A DNA stretch of 64,000 nucleotides, from contig NZ_FTMY01000004.1 in NCBI RefSeq assembly GCF_900156165.1, positions 186,001 through 250,000 on the forward strand. The letters run 5' to 3'. Made by a program: the position numbers and the translations under genes. The number at the start of each line of letters is the position of its first letter. The stretch's first letter is position 1. Shown in pieces: positions 2,833 through 13,116 of the stretch. The notes beneath the pieces are model-generated. The model was not told the origin of the DNA, made no database searches, and was given only the letters and a program-made list of their open reading frames with translations. The stretch is from Pseudacidovorax sp. RU35E (GTDB lineage Bacteria > Pseudomonadota > Gammaproteobacteria > Burkholderiales > Burkholderiaceae_C).

Positions 2833-4143
2833 TCAGGCCAGCAGCGGCCGATAGCGCTGGATGAACCTGTCCACGGCCCCCACGAGCTTCTCGATGGCCT
2901 CGTCCGTCACGGGCAAGGACAGCACCATGAAGCCGCGCGGCGAGATGTAGATGCCCTGCGCCAGCAGATGGAAGAAGAACAGCTGGCGCAACCTCGGGTC
3001 GGCCGCGGCCAGGTCTTCCGACCGCAGCAGCGGCCCGCGCACGAAGTGGGCATTCATCGCCGACCCCACGCCGGTGAACTGCATCGCGACGTCGCTTGCG
3101 GTGCACAGCGCGTTGAGCCGCTGGCGCAGTGCCTCGCCCCGGGCCGACAGATGCGCCGCCGCCTCGGGCGGATACAGGCGCGTCAGGCCCGCATGGCCGG
3201 CGGCCATGGTCACCACGTTGTTGTTGAAGGTGCCCGAATGGAGCAGGGGGCCGCCGCGGGGGTCGAACAGGGCCATGATGTCGGCCCGTCCGCCGAAGGC
3301 CCCGAAGGACATGCCGCCGCCGATGTACTTGCCGAGCGTGGTGATGTCCGCACGGACGCCCGCCTGCATGAACAGGCCCTGCGGCGCGAGCCGCGACACC
3401 ATCACCTCGTCGGCGATGAGCAGGGCGCCCGATTCGTTGGTGGCCTCGCGCAATGCGGCCAGGAAGCCGGGCGCGGCGGGAATGCAGCCGCTGGCGCCGA
3501 GCATCGGCTCGACGAGCACGGCGGCGATCTCGGCGGCGTGTGCGCGGATCTCGGCGCGCGCGCGCTCGATGTCGTTGTAGGGCAGCACCAGGAAGTCGAA
3601 GGGCACGGTCGTCGGCGCCGCGGTCGTGCCGAAGCCCAGCACCCCGCCGTGGTAGCCGCCCGTGAACACCACGATCCGGCGGCGCCCGGTGAAGTGCAGG
3701 GCCGCCGTGATGGCCATGAGGTTGGCCTCGGTGCCCGAATTGGTGAAGCGCACCTGTTCGACCTGCGGGAAGCGCTCGCACAGCAGCCGTGCCAGCTTGC
3801 CTTCGTAGAGGTTGTGGCCCGTGAGGTTGATGCCGTTGTCCATGGCCGCCAGCACGGCCTCGCGGATCTCGGGCGCAGAGTGGCCGTACACGCCAGCGGT
3901 GTATTCGGCGATGAAGTCGCTGTAGGTGTGACCGTCCAGGTCGGTCAGCTCGGCGCCCCGGCCGCTGGCCATGGTGAGCGGGAACGGGGCATAGAAGAGC
4001 ACCGAGCGGCTGTTGCCGCCGGGCATGTCGCGGGTCTGCTGCTCGAACTGGCGCGCACTGGCGGGGTTGCGTTCGACGAAATCGGTCTTGAGCGCGTCGA
4101 GCGCCTGGTCGAGGTTCAGGTGGGTCTTGTCAGAAGGCGTCAT
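2833..4143 (-). CDS. Class III aminotransferase, glutamate-1-semialdehyde aminomutase-like
   Basis: The protein has 436 residues and the fold-type I PLP order: TNSGTEANLMA for cofactor phosphate binding, a central LIADEV Asp, and the Schiff-base lysine in TTLGKYIGGGMSFGAFGG (about residue 272). The TLGKxIGGG context is closest to glutamate-1-semialdehyde aminomutases. The neighbourhood is catabolic, however (a fumarase-family lyase and a Bug receptor upstream on the same strand), and the CYHGH-type loop of HemL is replaced by FTGGYHGG. I infer an amino-acid or amine transaminase rather than haem synthesis. The ATG at 4143 is preceded by GAGGA. An earlier in-frame start at 4194 lacks such a site. 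It is the last gene of the operon. Confidence 0.8.
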   Translation of the reverse strand: MTPSDKTHLNLDQALDALKTDFVERNPASARQFEQQTRDMPGGNSRSVLFYAPFPLTMASGRGAELTDLDGHTYSDFIAEYTAGVYGHSAPEIREAVLAAMDNGINLTGHNLYEGKLARLLCERFPQVEQVRFTNSGTEANLMAITAALHFTGRRRIVVFTGGYHGGVLGFGTTAAPTTVPFDFLVLPYNDIERARAEIRAHAAEIAAVLVEPMLGASGCIPAAPGFLAALREATNESGALLIADEVMVSRLAPQGLFMQAGVRADITTLGKYIGGGMSFGAFGGRADIMALFDPRGGPLLHSGTFNNNVVTMAAGHAGLTRLYPPEAAAHLSARGEALRQRLNALCTASDVAMQFTGVGSAMNAHFVRGPLLRSEDLAAADPRLRQLFFFHLLAQGIYISPRGFMVLSLPVTDEAIEKLVGAVDRFIQRYRPLLA

Positions 4144-7830: not shown

Positions 7831-9255
7831 TTGCCCAGCACTTTCCACGACACCATCCCCGGCATGACCGAGGCGGGCCGCCTGCGGGCCCTCGCCGAAC
7901 TGCAGATCATGGACACGCCGCCCGAGGCGGCCTTCGACGACATCGCCTGGCTGGCGGCGTCGATCTGCCAGGTGCCGATCGCCCTGGTGACGCTGCTCGA
8001 CGGCGAGCGGCAGTGGTTCAAGGCCCGCTGCGGCATCGACTTCGACAGCACGCCCCGCCACGAGGCCTTCTGCACCCATGCCATCGCGCAGTCCGAGCTG
8101 CTGGAGGTGCGGGACATGCGCGCGGACCCGCGCTTCGCCGGTTATCCGTCGGTCGTGGGCGCGCCGCATCTGCGCTTCTATGCGGGCATGCCGCTCGTCG
8201 GCATCGAGGGCTGGCGCTATGGCACCTTGTGCGTCATGGACCGCAAGACCCGCACGCTCAACGAGACACAGCGCAGTTCCCTGCGCCGGCTGGCCGCGCG
8301 GGCCGCCGACCTGCTGGAGAACCGCCGTCTGCGCATCCTGGGCGAGAGCCGGGCCGCCGCCATCGGCGAGTTGCTCGAAGCCTTGCCCGACGGTGTGGTC
8401 ACCTGCGACGGCGGCGGCACGCTGCAGGAATTCAACAAGACCGCCCGCGAGTGGCACGGTGTGGACCCGCGCGCCCTGCCACCGACGCAGTGGCCGGCCT
8501 ATTTCGGCCTGTGCGAGCCCGACGGCCGCACGCTGCTGGAGCCGCAGCGGGTGCCGCTGGCGCGCGCCTATGCGGGCGAGAAGGTGCGTGGTCAGGCCAT
8601 CGTGATCCGCACGCCGGGCATGGAGCCGCGCACCGTCAGCTGCAATGCGAGCCCGCTGCTCGCGCCCGATGGGCACAGCCTGGGCGCCGTGTGCACCATG
8701 CACGACATCACTGCGCACGCGCGCGACTCGCGGCAGATGGAAATGCTGGCGATGACCGATTCGCTGACCGGCCTGCCCAACCGCCATGCCTGGTTCGCCG
8801 AGCTGGACCGGGCGCTCGCCCGCGCCCGCCGTGCCGGACAGCCGGTGGTGGTCGCCTTCATCGACCTGAACGGCTTCAAGGGCATCAACGACGCGCATGG
8901 CCACGGGATCGGTGACCAGGTGCTGCAGGAATGCGCCCTGCGCCTTCAGACCAGCTGCCGCAAGGGGGACTATCTGGCGCGGCTGTCGGGCGACGAGTTC
9001 GTGCTCTTCCTCGACCATGCCAATCCGGCCTCACAGGATCTGGCGGTGGTCGCACAGCGCATCCAGGCGGCGCTGCAGGCGCCGCTGCAGGTCGGGCGCC
9101 TCGTGCTCACGGTCGGCTGCAGCATCGGCTTCGCCACCGCGCCCGCCGACCGGGCCGAGCCGGATGCCCTGCTGCAACAGGCCGATGCCGCCATGTACCG
9201 CGCCAAGCGCGACAAGTCATTGCCGTTCGCGGTGGTCGACGCCAGCGCGCCCTGA
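7831..9255 (+). CDS. GAF-PAS-GGDEF diguanylate cyclase
   Basis: The protein has 474 residues. A GAF domain (about 15-165, with [21 protein letters not shown] and FCTHAI) is followed by a PAS domain (about 175-300, [16 protein letters not shown]) and a GGDEF domain (about 305-470). The active-site motif reads SGDEF at residues 386-390 rather than GGDEF, a variant found in some active enzymes. An RKGD inhibitory site stands exactly five residues before it, so product feedback by cyclic di-GMP is expected. There is no membrane segment, so it senses a cytoplasmic ligand. Translation starts at TTG 7831, supported by GGAGGA eight bases upstream; ATG 7864 is the alternative. Its last 39 bases overlap the convergent bufD gene. 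Confidence 0.88.
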
Positions 9256-9732
9256 GGGCGTCGCCTGCGCCGCCCGGCGGCGCTGCAGCAGCCCGTCGAC
9301 GGACCAGCGGCCGCCGCCCTGGACCAGCAGGTACAGCAGCAGGCCCGCCCACGACAGGTGCGTGGGCCAGGCCGACGGGTACACGAAGAGCTGGATCACC
9401 AGCGTCATGCCCAGCAGACCGAGCGCCGGCAACCGTGTGAGAAGGCCCAGGGCCAGCAGCACGGGCAGCACGTGCTCGGCGGTGGCCGCCATCTGCGCGG
9501 CCAGCTCGGGTGGGATCAGCGGCAGCCGGTATTCGGTGCGGAACAGCTCGTAGGCGCTGTCGTTGATGTGGAACCATCCGTCGACCTTGGTGCGGCCCGA
9601 CTGCCAGAAGATGGCGGCGATGGCCATGCGGTCGACCAGGGCCAGCGCGTCGTGCCAGGCGGGGCGGCGGCCGAAGGCCGAGAGGCGTGCGCTGAGGGTG
9701 GCAACCGGAGGGGGCAGGGGGGTGGCGTTCAT
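9217..9732 (-). CDS. bufD: DoxX-family membrane protein (BufD-like)
   Basis: The protein has 171 residues with about four hydrophobic helices and the DoxX pattern [20 protein letters not shown], then [20 protein letters not shown] and [18 protein letters not shown]. In bufferin operons a DoxX-like membrane protein closes the set BufA-BufB-BufC-BufD; its role is not settled, possibly redox support or export at the inner membrane. Its ATG overlaps the end of bufC by four bases (ATGA), which shows translational coupling. At the other end its last 39 bases are antisense to the end of the GGDEF gene. The last residues ([10 protein letters not shown]) are therefore dictated by two genes at once. 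Confidence 0.85.
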
Positions 9733-10580
9733 GCTTCGTTCGTCCATGGAGGGTCGAGACACAGCACCTGCCAGCCGAGCAGCTGGCCGATGAGCGCGCC
9801 GATGGCGCAGCCGGGGTCGGCGGTGAGGGCCTGCGCGCTGGCGTCGAGCAGCGTCCGGCCCTCTGCGCAGGCGTCGAGGAAGGCGCAGCCCGCGCGGTCC
9901 AGCGCATGCCACTCGACCGCCTCGCCGGGCCGAAGGAGCAGGGCGCCGTCCGGCATGCCGGGCAGCAGCGCGGACAGCGCAGCGGCATCGGCCTGCGAGC
10001 GCGCGGCCTGCCAGATCGCGAAGGCCGGCAGATCGGCGTGCCAGGCCCAGCGGGCCGAAGGCAGGGGCCTCAGCCGCAGCTGCCCCAGGGCATCGTGCGG
10101 CAGGGCGGCCAGGGCACTGGCGCCCACCGGCTGCGCATCGGCCGCCTGGTGGGCCTCGAGCCACAGGCGGTCGAGACGGCACACCGCACGCAGCCAGGGC
10201 AGGCCCGCCGTGGACGGCAGCTCCGCCAGGAAGTCGGGCAGGCCCTCGCCATAGCGCAGCAGGCTGGCGTCGGTCGGCAGGTCGTGCCGCAGGTATTCGG
10301 CCGCGGCACTGCGCAGCCAATCCTCGCCCACGAGATGGGCGGTGGCCGGATGGTTGGCGACCAGCGCCTCGATGCACGCGCGGCGCCAGCCGTTGCGGTA
10401 GACGGCCAGACCCGGCTGGCCGGCCAGCGGCCCTTGGGCCTCGGGTGCGAGCAGGGCGGCATGCAGCAGGCGCTCGAAGTCTGCCGCGGGGTCGGGCGCT
10501 GGCGACCCCTGCAACACGGCGCCGGCCGGACCGGTGTGCTCCGCGACTGCAGTCGGCACGAATGCGGGCCGGGCGCTCAT
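9729..10580 (-). CDS. bufC: DUF2063 protein, BufC-like partner of the peptide-modifying enzyme
   Basis: The protein has 283 residues. The N-terminal DUF2063 region is clear from [20 protein letters not shown] and [18 protein letters not shown]. In the methanobactin and bufferin systems, proteins of this type (MbnC, BufC) bind the precursor peptide and form a complex with the DUF692 iron enzyme. It overlaps bufB upstream and bufD downstream by four bases each (ATGA both times), so the three are one translational unit. The ATG at 10580 is taken because of that overlap; the earlier in-frame start lies inside bufB. The C-terminal half is more variable, as usual for the family. Confidence 0.85.
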
Positions 10581-11431
10581 GCGAGGACCTCGGGCAGGGC
10601 GGCCTCGTCCAGGCATCGCTGGGCCCGGGTGCGCTCGGCCATCAGGTCGGTGAACGCGGGCACGTCCTCATCCCGTTCAAGCAGCACGGGACGCGGGCCA
10701 TGCCGGTGCAGAAACTGCGTCAGCAGGGTCCACACCTCGGGCGCCACGGCGCGGTCGTGCGTGTCCACGAGCAGGGCTTCGCCACGCACCGGATCGGGCG
10801 CATGGCCGGCGATGTGCAGCTCCATCACCGCCTGGGCCGGAAAGGCGTCGACATAGGCCCATGCGTCCTGCCCGAGGTTGCGACAGGAGACCTGCACGTT
10901 GTTCAGGTCCAGCAGCAGACCGCAGCCGGTGCGGGTCACCAGTTCGGCCAGGAAGTCGGCCTCGGGCCAGGCGTGGCCGTCCAGGCGCAGGTAGTGCGAC
11001 GGGTTCTCGATGGCCAGGCGCCGGCCCAGCGTCTGCTGCACCTCGTCTACGCGCGCGGCCAGACGCGAGAGGGCGGCGTCGGTGCGCAGCACCGGCAGCA
11101 GGTCGGGCAGGTAGCGGCCACCCATGCGCGACCACGCCAGGTGCTCCGAGACGAGCACCGGCCGCAGCCGGTCGACCAGGGCGCGGAAGCGCCGCAGGTG
11201 CGGCCGGTCGAGCGGCTCGGTGCCGCCCAGCGACATCGCCACGCCATGCAGCGACAGCGGATGCCGCGCGCCGATGCGCTCAAGCCAAGCCAGGCGCGGG
11301 CCGCCGTCGACCAGGTAGTTCTCGGGATGGACCTCGAACCACAGGCCCTCGACGTCGGCGGCCAGCGCGGCGTCGAAGTGCTGCGGCTTGAGGCCGAGGC
11401 CCGCGCCGGGCGTGGACGTTGCAGGGTGCAT
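10577..11431 (-). CDS. bufB: DUF692 TIM-barrel iron enzyme, bufferin-modifying (BufB)
   Basis: The protein has 284 residues and is a typical DUF692 (MbnB/BufB) enzyme. Acidic and histidine motifs sit at strand ends of the barrel: [54 protein letters not shown] and VDTHDRAV. Together these are the expected ligands of a multinuclear iron site. Family members use oxygen to convert cysteine residues of a ribosomal peptide into heterocycles (oxazolone/thioamide in methanobactin, thiooxazole in bufferins). It begins 21 bases after the precursor gene bufA and overlaps bufC by four bases. The substrate assignment rests on this gene order and on the four-cysteine precursor next door. Confidence 0.88.
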
Positions 11432-11452
11432 GGCGATGCGGCGCCCGGACGA

Positions 11453-11743
11453 TCAGGACTTCATCGGCGTCAGCGAGCCCATGCCCTTGGGCGTCTTCAT
11501 GCTGGTGCAGGTGCCGGCGGGCACGTTCTTCCAGGCGTTGGCCTGGTAGTCGACCTTGGAGGTGCCGGCGCAGGTGGTGCCGGGGCCGGCAGCGCAGTCG
11601 TTCTTGCCGGCCATCGCCACGCCGTAGCACTTCTCCATCTTGGCCATGGTGTCGGCGGGCTTGCTGTCCTGGGCATGGGCGATGCCGCCGGCCAGGGCGG
11701 CGAGCAGGAAGGCGGCGGAGGCGAGGGGACGGGTCGAGTTCAT
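11453..11743 (-). CDS. bufA: BufA-type (DUF2282) copper-binding precursor peptide
   Basis: The protein has 96 residues. A Sec signal peptide (about 1-24, ending AHA before QDS) is followed by a small core with exactly four cysteines at 39, 50, 58 and 79: KCYGVA, NDCAAG, TTCAG and GTCTSM. This is the DUF2282/BufA1 pattern, in which the two central cysteines are modified by BufB/BufC and the exported peptide binds copper. The ATG at 11743 is preceded by CAGGAG eight bases upstream; the in-frame ATG at 11788 would add 15 residues before the signal peptide. It is first in the operon and carries its own ECF-type promoter, with a leader of about 60 bases. Confidence 0.87.
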
Positions 11744-11807
11744 GGTGAAGGCTCCTGAATGGAAGGGGTTGGAAGCGGCCACCGCCATCGCGGCGACCGC
11801 TGGTTAA

Positions 11808-11833
11808 TTCAGCCCGGCCACGTCGCGGGTTAC
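11808..11833 (-). promoter_or_regulatory. ECF (SigF-type) promoter of the bufABCD operon
   Basis: Read on the minus strand, GTAACC (11833-11828) is followed by exactly 16 bases and TGAA (11811-11808). The SigF consensus known from Caulobacter is GTAACC-N16-CGAA, so this site has one mismatch in the -10 element. Transcription would begin near 11802, about 60 bases before bufA. The ten bases GTAACCCGCG are shared with the divergent sigma-factor promoter. Confidence 0.72.
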
Positions 11834-11876
11834 GTGGCCGGCACAATCGCCCGCAAAAAATAAAGTCCCGGCGCGT

Positions 11877-11902
11877 GTAACCCGCGTGCCGGCTGCGGCG
11901 AA
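11877..11902 (+). promoter_or_regulatory. ECF (SigF-type) promoter of the sigma/anti-sigma operon
   Basis: GTAACC at 11877-11882 is followed by exactly 16 bases and CGAA at 11899-11902, a perfect match to the SigF consensus GTAACC-N16-CGAA recalled from Caulobacter. It implies autoregulation of the sigma factor. The start codon lies only 18 bases after the -10 element, so the leader would be about 12 bases long, and the GAGAGG ribosome site would lie close to the 5' end of the transcript. Confidence 0.75.
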
Positions 11903-11920
11903 CTGAGAGAGGCTTTCCGA

Positions 11921-12478
11921 ATGAGTACCGCCGAAGCCCACCTGCGCACGCTGTTCCTTCGTGGACTCGATGGCGATGCCGCTGCCTACCGCCAGTTCCT
12001 GTCGGAGCTGGCGGCGCACCTGCGCGCCTTTCTGCGGCGGCGGCTGTTCGGCTGGCCCGACGACGTCGAGGACCTGGTCCAGGAGTGCCTTCTTGCCATG
12101 CACAACCAGCGACACACCTACCTGCGCGACCATCCGGTGACGGCCTGGGCGCACGCCATCGCGCGCCACAAGCTGATCGACCACCTGCGCCAGAAGTCCT
12201 CGCGCGAGGCGCTGCACGAGCCACTGGACGATGCGCTCGAACTGGTCGCCGATTCGGATACCGACGCCCAGGAGGCGCGTCGCGACCTGCTGGTGCTGCT
12301 GGACACGCTGCCCGACCGCCACCGCCTGCCCATCGTGCACACCAAGCTGCAGGGCCTGTCGGTGGCCGAGACGGCGCAGCTGACCGGCATGTCCGAATCG
12401 GCCGTGAAGGTGGGTGTGCACCGCGGCCTCAAGGCCCTGGCCGCCCGGCTCGGCATCGACAAGGAGGCCGCTGCATGA
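11921..12478 (+). CDS. sigF: ECF sigma factor, SigF-like
   Basis: The protein has 185 residues and only the two ECF domains. Region 2 is seen as DDVEDLVQECLLAMHNQRHTY with the WAHAIARHKLIDHLRQ helix. Region 4 is seen as TLPDRHRLPIVHTKLQGLSVAETAQ and SESAVKVGVHRGLKAL. The gene overlaps its anti-sigma partner by four bases and stands back to back with the bufferin operon. In Caulobacter a sigma of this group (SigF), released by NrsF, answers heavy-metal excess and drives bufferin genes. The matching promoters on both sides of this intergenic region support the same role here. GAGAGG eight bases before the ATG serves as the ribosome site. Confidence 0.88.
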   Translation: MSTAEAHLRTLFLRGLDGDAAAYRQFLSELAAHLRAFLRRRLFGWPDDVEDLVQECLLAMHNQRHTYLRDHPVTAWAHAIARHKLIDHLRQKSSREALHEPLDDALELVADSDTDAQEARRDLLVLLDTLPDRHRLPIVHTKLQGLSVAETAQLTGMSESAVKVGVHRGLKALAARLGIDKEAAA

Positions 12479-13116
12479 AGACCGACGATCTGGTGAACCT
12501 GCTGGCGCAGGACGCGGCGCCGGTGCCCGCCGGCACCGCGTCGCGCCGCCTGTGGCTGGCGCTGGCGTGCAGCCTGCCCCTGTCGCTGCTGCTCATGCAG
12601 GCGGGCTATGGGGTGCGCGGCGACCTCTGGCGCGTGATGGCGCTGCCCATGCTGTGGGTCAAGCTGGCCGTGTCGCTGTGCGTGGCCGTCGCCGGGCTGC
12701 TGATGGTGCGGCGTCTGGCCAGCCCCGGCGTGCGTCCGGGCCGGGCCGGCTGGCTGGCCGTGGTGGCCGTCGGGCTGCTGTGGGCGCTGGCCGTGTGGCG
12801 CTGGATCGACATGCCGCAGCCCGTGCGCATGCCCGCGCTGATGGGCCAGACCTGGCGCACCTGCGTGGTCAACATCGGCCTGATCGGGCTGCCCGTGTTC
12901 GTGGCCGCCTTCTGGATGCTGCGCGGCATGGCCGCCACGCGGCCGCGCCGGGCGGGGGCCGCGGCCGGCCTGCTGGCGGGCGGCGCGGGCGCGACCGTGT
13001 ACGCGCTGCACTGCCCCGAGCTGACCGCACCCTTCCTGGCCACCTGGTACGTGCTCGGGATGTTGCTGCCGGTGGCTGCCGGCGCCGCGCTGGGTCCGCG
13101 GCTGCTGCGCTGGTGA
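12475..13116 (+). CDS. nrsF: NrsF (DUF1109) membrane anti-sigma factor
   Basis: The protein has 213 residues with six hydrophobic segments (about 25-45, 55-78, 92-110, 132-150, 158-175 and 188-208) after a short cytoplasmic N-terminus MKTDDLVNLLAQDAAP that probably holds the sigma factor. Cysteines at 130 (WRTCVVN) and 180 (LHCPEL) lie at the positions of the metal-sensing pair reported for Caulobacter NrsF (C131 and C181, recalled). Two more cysteines (32 and 69) lie in membrane helices. It starts with an ATGA overlap on sigF. The role is to hold SigF at the inner membrane until metal binding or oxidation of the cysteine pair releases it. It is convergent with the next gene, six bases away. 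Confidence 0.85.
   Translation: MKTDDLVNLLAQDAAPVPAGTASRRLWLALACSLPLSLLLMQAGYGVRGDLWRVMALPMLWVKLAVSLCVAVAGLLMVRRLASPGVRPGRAGWLAVVAVGLLWALAVWRWIDMPQPVRMPALMGQTWRTCVVNIGLIGLPVFVAAFWMLRGMAATRPRRAGAAAGLLAGGAGATVYALHCPELTAPFLATWYVLGMLLPVAAGAALGPRLLRW

Follow-up and report, generated by a model that had tools for sequence, protein, structure and literature searches.

A Buf1 bufferin operon divergent from a sigF-nrsF pair in Pseudacidovorax sp. RU35E, with paired SigF-type promoter sequences and the same motif before msrP

Introduction

Bufferins are peptides that are reported to carry Cys-derived thiooxazoles on their central cysteines, to have disulphide-bonded outer cysteines, and to sequester copper (PMC12452194). 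In Caulobacter crescentus, the genes CC3252-CC3257 comprise a sigF-nrsF pair and a DUF2282-DUF692-DUF2063-DoxX operon with promoters of the form GTAACC-N16-CGAA (PMC3511200, PMC8224329). That sequence is the published consensus for the sigma factor SigF, whose reported regulon consists of CC3254-3257, CC2905-2907, CC2748, and sigF itself; the same study describes NrsF as restraining SigF, with Cys residues of NrsF that matter (PMC3511200). Here, we describe a bufferin operon and its sigF-nrsF pair in a 64,000-nucleotide stretch of DNA (hereafter the window) from Pseudacidovorax sp. RU35E (contig NZ_FTMY01000004.1, positions 186,001 to 250,000), and we examine the SigF-type promoter sequences associated with this locus and its relatives.

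Two further systems are close to that of the window. Cupriavidus metallidurans, which belongs to the same order as the window organism, possesses gigPABT opposite rpoQ-rsqA on its chromid; these are the same six gene families in the same divergent layout, for which the term "divergon" was used, and gig is induced by copper and gold (PMC10304878). The matched parts of the proteins of the two organisms are 61% identical for BufB, 60% for BufA, 60% for SigF, 59% (58.5%) for DoxX, 43% for NrsF, and 42% for BufC. Bradyrhizobium EcfF/OsrA is a sigma factor and membrane anti-sigma factor of the same type, reported to have H2O2 as its inducer and to need OsrA Cys179 for the response; the conserved cysteines are residues 129 and 179 in that protein and 130 and 180 in NrsF of the window (PMC3420878). 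We read NrsF and OsrA as members of one family because OsrA is annotated as DUF1109, the name that plasmid records give to NrsF matches. Caulobacter has a second paralogous operon (CC2905-2907), whereas a single MNIO (DUF692) enzyme was found in the genome of the window. The cluster is thus of a known kind already in print, and its gene set and layout are ordinary.

Results

The window contains a divergon of six intact open reading frames, in which the minus strand encodes bufA-bufB-bufC-doxX and the plus strand encodes sigF-nrsF (Table 1). The original prediction, made from the letters of the window, had placed a contiguous bufABCD operon back to back with a sigma/anti-sigma pair at 9217..13116, and the module occupies precisely that interval; the gene order is as predicted, and all six proteins exceed the Pfam gathering scores of their families. 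ATGA overlaps occur from bufB to bufD, as had been noted (bufB/bufC at 10580-10577, bufC/doxX at 9732-9729), and also between sigF and nrsF (12475-12478); bufA and bufB are 21 bases apart. The identification as a Buf1 bufferin operon with a SigF/NrsF pair was borne out by the Pfam matches and by a BufB score above the NF050167 cut-off, and genes for DUF2063 and DoxX proteins both accompany the BufB-type MNIO and the DUF2282 precursor, as in Buf1 operons. Assignment of BufB as a methanobactin- or ChrH-type enzyme was rejected, with scores of 70 bits for MbnB (cut-off 325) and 33.6 for ChrH (cut-off 600) versus that for the BufB model. Its phmmer matches in the Protein Data Bank (PDB) were 3bww and 8hci, both of the DUF692 family, and MbnB chains; BufA and BufC each gave 0 matches to PDB sequences at E <= 0.1. 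None of the NCBIfam models matched BufC, and two other proteins scored below NCBIfam cut-offs (NrsF, 150.8 against an equivalog cut-off of 300; DoxX to HvfX, 47.8 against 80). Cys130 and Cys180 of NrsF are a conserved pair, invariant in 7 aligned NrsF sequences including that of the window, and the protein has two further cysteines at positions 32 and 69. Five named Pseudacidovorax loci encode NrsF proteins with 87-99% identity to that of the window, and the next named matches are at 66% or less.

The 177 bases between bufA and sigF hold both of the GTAACC-N17-GAA matches in the window, and the two face in opposite directions, consistent with one promoter for each arm of the divergon. The expected number for the window was 0.04, and none of 100 shuffles reached 2. 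Across the whole genome, this relaxed pattern had 4 matches compared to 11 for the reversed control, and the exact motif had 2 (one before sigF and one on contig 9) compared to 2 for the control. The genome match at C10:115704 was dismissed as a SigF target because it sits within a reading frame, which we take to be that of ribosomal protein L20.

The exact motif on contig 9 starts 72 bases before the assigned start of msrP (G000:C9:185076), encoding the catalytic subunit of a protein-methionine-sulphoxide reductase (PRK05363, 486 bits). The circuit had been described as self-contained; given this second site on another contig, it is neither self-contained nor confined to a single locus. We extended the comparison to the genus, as grouped by the tool used, with 11 genomes (the window's own included) drawn from a larger group. 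The exact motif was present at both sigF and msrP in 10 of these, and the 29 exact matches across the set were divided among sigF (10), the bufA side (1, in genome G202), msrP (10), and other places (8). G203, the eleventh genome, lacks both NrsF and an MNIO; the exact motif is absent from it altogether, including before its msrP.

A control was also made at the level of the family. From a draw of 200 genomes, 37 were positive for NrsF (own genome included); the 36 other positives were taken at any completeness and were compared with 36 NrsF-negative genomes, namely the lowest-numbered with >=90% completeness. MsrP was found in 31 of the 36 positive and 34 of the 36 negative genomes. Among the 30 best-scoring msrP loci per group (one positive locus having only 252 bases upstream), the exact motif preceded the gene in 11/30 from NrsF-positive and 0/30 from NrsF-negative genomes (Fisher p = 3.2e-4, not corrected for relatedness), and 2 of the 11 belong to the genus. 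From these proportions, msrP is a frequent, not a universal, target. The Caulobacter msrP homologue, CC2748 (CCNA_02834), is reported to belong to the SigF regulon (PMC3511200, PMC8224329). A literature search found no report of the motif or of the msrP link in Burkholderiales, although the search covered titles and the beginnings of abstracts and is weak evidence of absence.

The paired arrangement recurs in relatives. In the family draw, DUF2282 occurred in 117/200 genomes and NrsF in 37/200, with both lying within 4 kb (by eye) in 21 of those 37. The 29 best-scoring BufA loci of relatives included 10 with sigF and nrsF alongside, of which 8 have the exact motif on both sides and 2, from the same genus, have it on the sigF side only. 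Among the 19 loci lacking an adjoining sigF-nrsF, L034 alone shows an exact match upstream of bufA, and NrsF is encoded ∼2.4 kb off in that genome. We also collected named NrsF loci, the best 80 of 237, mostly Burkholderiales by title and partly overlapping the family set. Of the 80, 42 have bufA and sigF transcribed divergently, 6 have bufA placed differently, 25 have no bufA, and 7 have no adjoining sigF that could be found. The back-to-back layout, which had been put forward as new ground, is therefore common in this set as well as published for C. metallidurans. All 42 divergent loci have matches to bufB, bufC, and doxX; the exact motif occurs on the sigF side in 39/42, on the buf side in 28/42, and on both in 25/42. 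The 518,592 bases of these loci yield 67 exact matches, compared to 0 for the reversed pattern, and because 67 is the sum of 39 and 28, no exact match lies elsewhere in them. The 25 loci without bufA have the sigF-side motif in 21 cases and a motif facing away in 14. In C. metallidurans CH34, the gig/rpoQ divergon (L065) carries two exact motifs in opposite orientations, at locus positions 3204 (+) and 3169 (-), with the first aligned rpoQ codon at 3389.

BufA, a protein of 96 residues, has cysteines at positions 39, 50, 58, and 79, and the two named in the original prediction (Cys50 and Cys58) are the central pair. The N-terminus is hydrophobic and ends, by eye, in AHA-Q, consistent with a putative signal peptide. 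The PF10048 match covers the Cys core, residues 36-89, and since it spans this core we rejected the Pfam description of DUF2282 as an "integral membrane protein". The only NCBIfam match was to BufA2 (NF050166) at 19.4 bits, below the cut-off of 60 and so outside the Buf2 type. In a comparison of 81 precursors from the collected loci, some of which come from one genome, four cysteines were present in 76 and five in 5. The spacing C-x10-C-x7-C-x20-C, that of BufA in the window, was the commonest (63/81), followed by 10-8-20 (17/81) and 10-6-20 (1/81); the corresponding values for the 78 distinct sequences, including that of the window, were 60, 17, and 1. Every row of the alignment has NDC at the second cysteine (N48-D49-C50) and C-x-G at the third (C58-x-G60).

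The hope had been expressed that this peptide might be modified in a pattern different from that of known Buf1 peptides. That BufA passes no NCBIfam model could be taken to favor such a difference, but the four cysteines with 10-7-20 spacing, the residues shared by all rows, the BufB score above the bufferin maturase cut-off, and the failure to find a second MNIO in the genome, which also yielded one DUF2282 protein, make it very improbable. Nothing in the sequence suggests a new modification pattern, because the cysteine spacing is the commonest Buf1 form. A second Buf1 type found in family genomes (e.g., L006, L009, and L014) is mostly 42-53% identical to BufA of the window, has 10-8-20 spacing in most of the examples inspected, and is accompanied by neither NrsF nor the paired motif in the collected loci.

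Other features of the intergenic region were observed. A perfect 8-base inverted repeat, GGCCACGT-N8-ACGTGGCC, at 11816-11839 of the window spans the -35 element on the bufA side; by eye, it is absent from two loci of the same genus (L026 and L031). Between the two -35 elements (11834-11876 of the window, and the equivalent region of relatives), the word CACAAT recurs in 19/57 central segments, next to a tract rich in A and T; it could serve sigF as a housekeeping -10 element. The spacer between the -35 elements is 41-46 bases long in 40/57 segments. Outside the module, a GGDEF (diguanylate cyclase) gene at 7831-9255 is convergent with doxX and overlaps its end by 39 bases.

Several collected loci depart from the simple divergon. 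In another genome of the genus (G071), an exact SigF motif ends 95 bases before the gene for a six-Cys precursor that is followed by an MNIO gene (L164 1501-2760). This precursor passes the BufA2 model (97.9 bits, cut-off 60), and sigma and anti-sigma genes have been reported in Buf1, not Buf2, clusters (PMC12452194); the sequence is perhaps that of a Buf2 operon driven by SigF in trans. A Variovorax paradoxus plasmid (NZ_CP138516.1; L067 3583-3957) carries bufA-bufB-bufC-doxX with an exact motif before bufA, and no sigF or nrsF match was found within the 8.8 kb fetched, so that control in trans is possible there. The conjugative plasmid NZ_CP083747.1 of Pseudomonas sp. p1(2021b) (L068 2705-3961) has a bufferin operon and nrsF with SigF-type promoters on both sides; no sigF lies between the operon and nrsF, and a sigF match occurs ∼3.6 kb beyond nrsF on the same plasmid. 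In some loci, a SigF-NrsF pair has no bufferin and is opposed by a different gene. In L052, L053, L058, and L060, this gene encodes an ArsS-type radical SAM protein (TIGR04167, 343 bits in L060; identified by eye in the other three), and in L038 (weak matches) and L043 (by eye), it encodes a cytochrome b-like protein. Several of these bufferin-free pairs carry the same motif. An Asticcacaulis excentricus plasmid (L066 1-6017) carries a back-to-back pair of MNIO clusters, together with one sigma factor and a tandem pair of NrsF-family genes.

Table 1. Genes and predicted SigF promoters of the bufferin divergon, in window coordinates. Scores are in bits, with gathering scores or model cut-offs in parentheses.
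Feature	Position	Strand	Basis and remarks
doxX (bufD, gigT-like), DoxX-family membrane protein	9217..9732	-	Pfam DoxX PF07681 66.7 (gathering 23.6)
bufC, DUF2063 partner protein of the MNIO enzyme	9729..10580	-	PF09836 56.0 (gathering 27.2)
bufB, MNIO (DUF692) bufferin maturase	10577..11431	-	MNIO_BufB NF050167 349.5 (cut-off 310); PF05114 321.9 (gathering 25)
bufA, Buf1 (DUF2282) precursor	11453..11743	-	PF10048 89.7 (gathering 22.4)
predicted SigF promoter for bufA, GTAACC-N16-TGAA	11808..11833	-	One base off CGAA; starts 90 bases before the bufA start codon
predicted SigF promoter for sigF-nrsF, GTAACC-N16-CGAA	11877..11902	+	Exact; starts 44 bases before the sigF start codon
sigF (rpoQ-like), ECF sigma factor	11921..12478	+	PRK12536 292.8 (cut-off 250); Sigma70_r2 45.3; r4_2 46.4
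nrsF, membrane anti-sigma factor	12475..13116	+	PF06532 229.8 (gathering 26.8)

Discussion

We conclude that the locus comprises a Buf1 bufferin operon under the control of a SigF/NrsF switch, with a probability of about 0.88. The gene content, the layout, the promoter sequences and their conservation, and the link to msrP were observed directly; for the chemistry, the copper binding, the direction of regulation, and the signal, we draw on the published relatives. By analogy with those systems, the membrane protein NrsF would hold SigF at rest, and envelope stress, probably acting through Cys130 and Cys180 of NrsF, would free it. SigF-containing polymerase would then transcribe both arms of the divergon from the paired GTAACC-N16-(C/T)GAA promoters, as well as msrP elsewhere in the genome. 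BufB with BufC is predicted to convert the central Cys50 and Cys58 of BufA to thiooxazoles, with a disulphide between Cys39 and Cys79. The exported peptide would bind excess periplasmic copper, and MsrP would repair oxidized methionines in the same compartment.

The original prediction had called the module copper-sensing, but what the switch perceives may be broader than copper, since relatives with this type of switch are reported to answer Cu, Cr, Cd, Au, and H2O2. It could be a sensor of thiol-reactive or oxidant stress for which copper is one of several inducers, so that the bufferin would be a general soft-metal or stress peptide and msrP an equal target. The promoter shared with msrP and the invariance of the two NrsF cysteines are in line with this idea, as is the requirement of Bradyrhizobium OsrA for Cys179 in the H2O2 response noted above. 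Reports on Caulobacter point both ways: SigF responds to chromium and cadmium but is not induced by agents that make reactive oxygen (PMC3511200), and a sigF mutant is described as impaired in stationary-phase oxidative stress but as sensitive to copper and not to chromium or cadmium, with the regulon being copper-induced in all conditions tested (PMC8224329). The response of gig to gold as well as copper (PMC10304878, PMC11022561) also suits a broader sensor. We give this alternative an appreciable chance, somewhat short of even odds.

A number of observations weigh against SigF control of the bufferin operon as we propose it. The bufA-side -10 element of the window is TGAA, not the consensus CGAA found on the gig side in C. 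metallidurans. Exact motifs in the 11 genus genomes are no more numerous than reversed controls (29 vs 31), and thus only the position of the motif carries signal. The exact motif is missing from 19/30 msrP loci of NrsF-positive genomes, and no GTAACC-type motif was found when the Asticcacaulis plasmid cluster was searched. Of the divergent loci, 14/42 are inexact on the buf side: 4 from Pseudacidovorax (all those of the named set with bufA), 3 from Xenophilus, 4 from Variovorax, and 3 without a genus name. Finally, metal-treated C. metallidurans expressed gig more strongly once rpoQ was lost, and the start mapped for rpoQ-rsqA depends on RpoD (PMC10304878); a 2026 paper calls RpoQ not essential for gig and describes its dispensability as unexplained (PMC13192273).

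These points raise the prospect that bufA in this clade is weakly driven by SigF, or not at all, with a promoter that has drifted and an operon that answers to a different regulator or to a sigma factor paralogue. The asymmetry between the two sides fits such a history: departures on the sigF side are limited to 3/42 loci (two with GTAACT and one without a candidate), and only one of the 10 motif-bearing genus genomes (G202, exact on both sides) has an exact buf-side site. Yet all 14 inexact loci keep a GTAAC element with GAA at 16 or 17 bases. The variants are TGAA in L072, as in the window; GTAACG with GGAA in L071, L073, and L074; AGAA in L087; N17 spacing in L076, L077, L081, L082, and L084; GTAACT in L078 and L079; and GTAACG in L080 and L100. 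Indeed, all 42 loci retain a buf-side GTAAC-N16/17-NGAA with one or two departures, although this survey is not a blind test because each candidate was chosen by a score that favors the consensus. The finding that gig expression does not need rpoQ (PMC10304878, PMC11022561, PMC13192273) also agrees with loss of SigF control, but C. metallidurans itself has an exact gig-side site, and promoter drift therefore does not explain the rpoQ result in that organism. On this evidence, we consider drift away from SigF control to be unlikely.

Control of gig by RpoQ has been treated with caution in the C. metallidurans literature. The 2023 paper identified no promoter upstream of gig, found no start site upstream of gigP in unchallenged cells, and stated that control by RpoQ could be assumed even though evidence for it was missing (PMC10304878). 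According to the 2024 paper, partial complementation by other sigma factors means that such control is not demonstrated, and CupR is named as the likely master regulator at higher copper concentrations (PMC11022561). An RpoQ paralogue such as RpoR reading the same gig/rpoQ sites would fit these reports.

A more far-reaching proposal, which we offer tentatively and regard as less probable than the broader sensor, is that a SigF/RpoQ promoter class in Burkholderiales ties the copper-buffering peptide to msrP in a module that answers thiol and methionine damage in the envelope, not copper as such. Under this proposal, the bufA-side promoter would be drifting in Pseudacidovorax, Xenophilus, and Variovorax with the sigF side held, and the operon would be detuned or handed to another regulator.

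Returning to the SigF/NrsF-run operon that we favor, the cluster of the window taken alone is one more bufferin cluster, and its value lies in the promoter prediction and the msrP link in Burkholderiales. The paired SigF-type sites, in the window and in CH34, provide a direct prediction for how gig is controlled and specify which bases should be tested, and the link to msrP shows where else to look for control by SigF/RpoQ.

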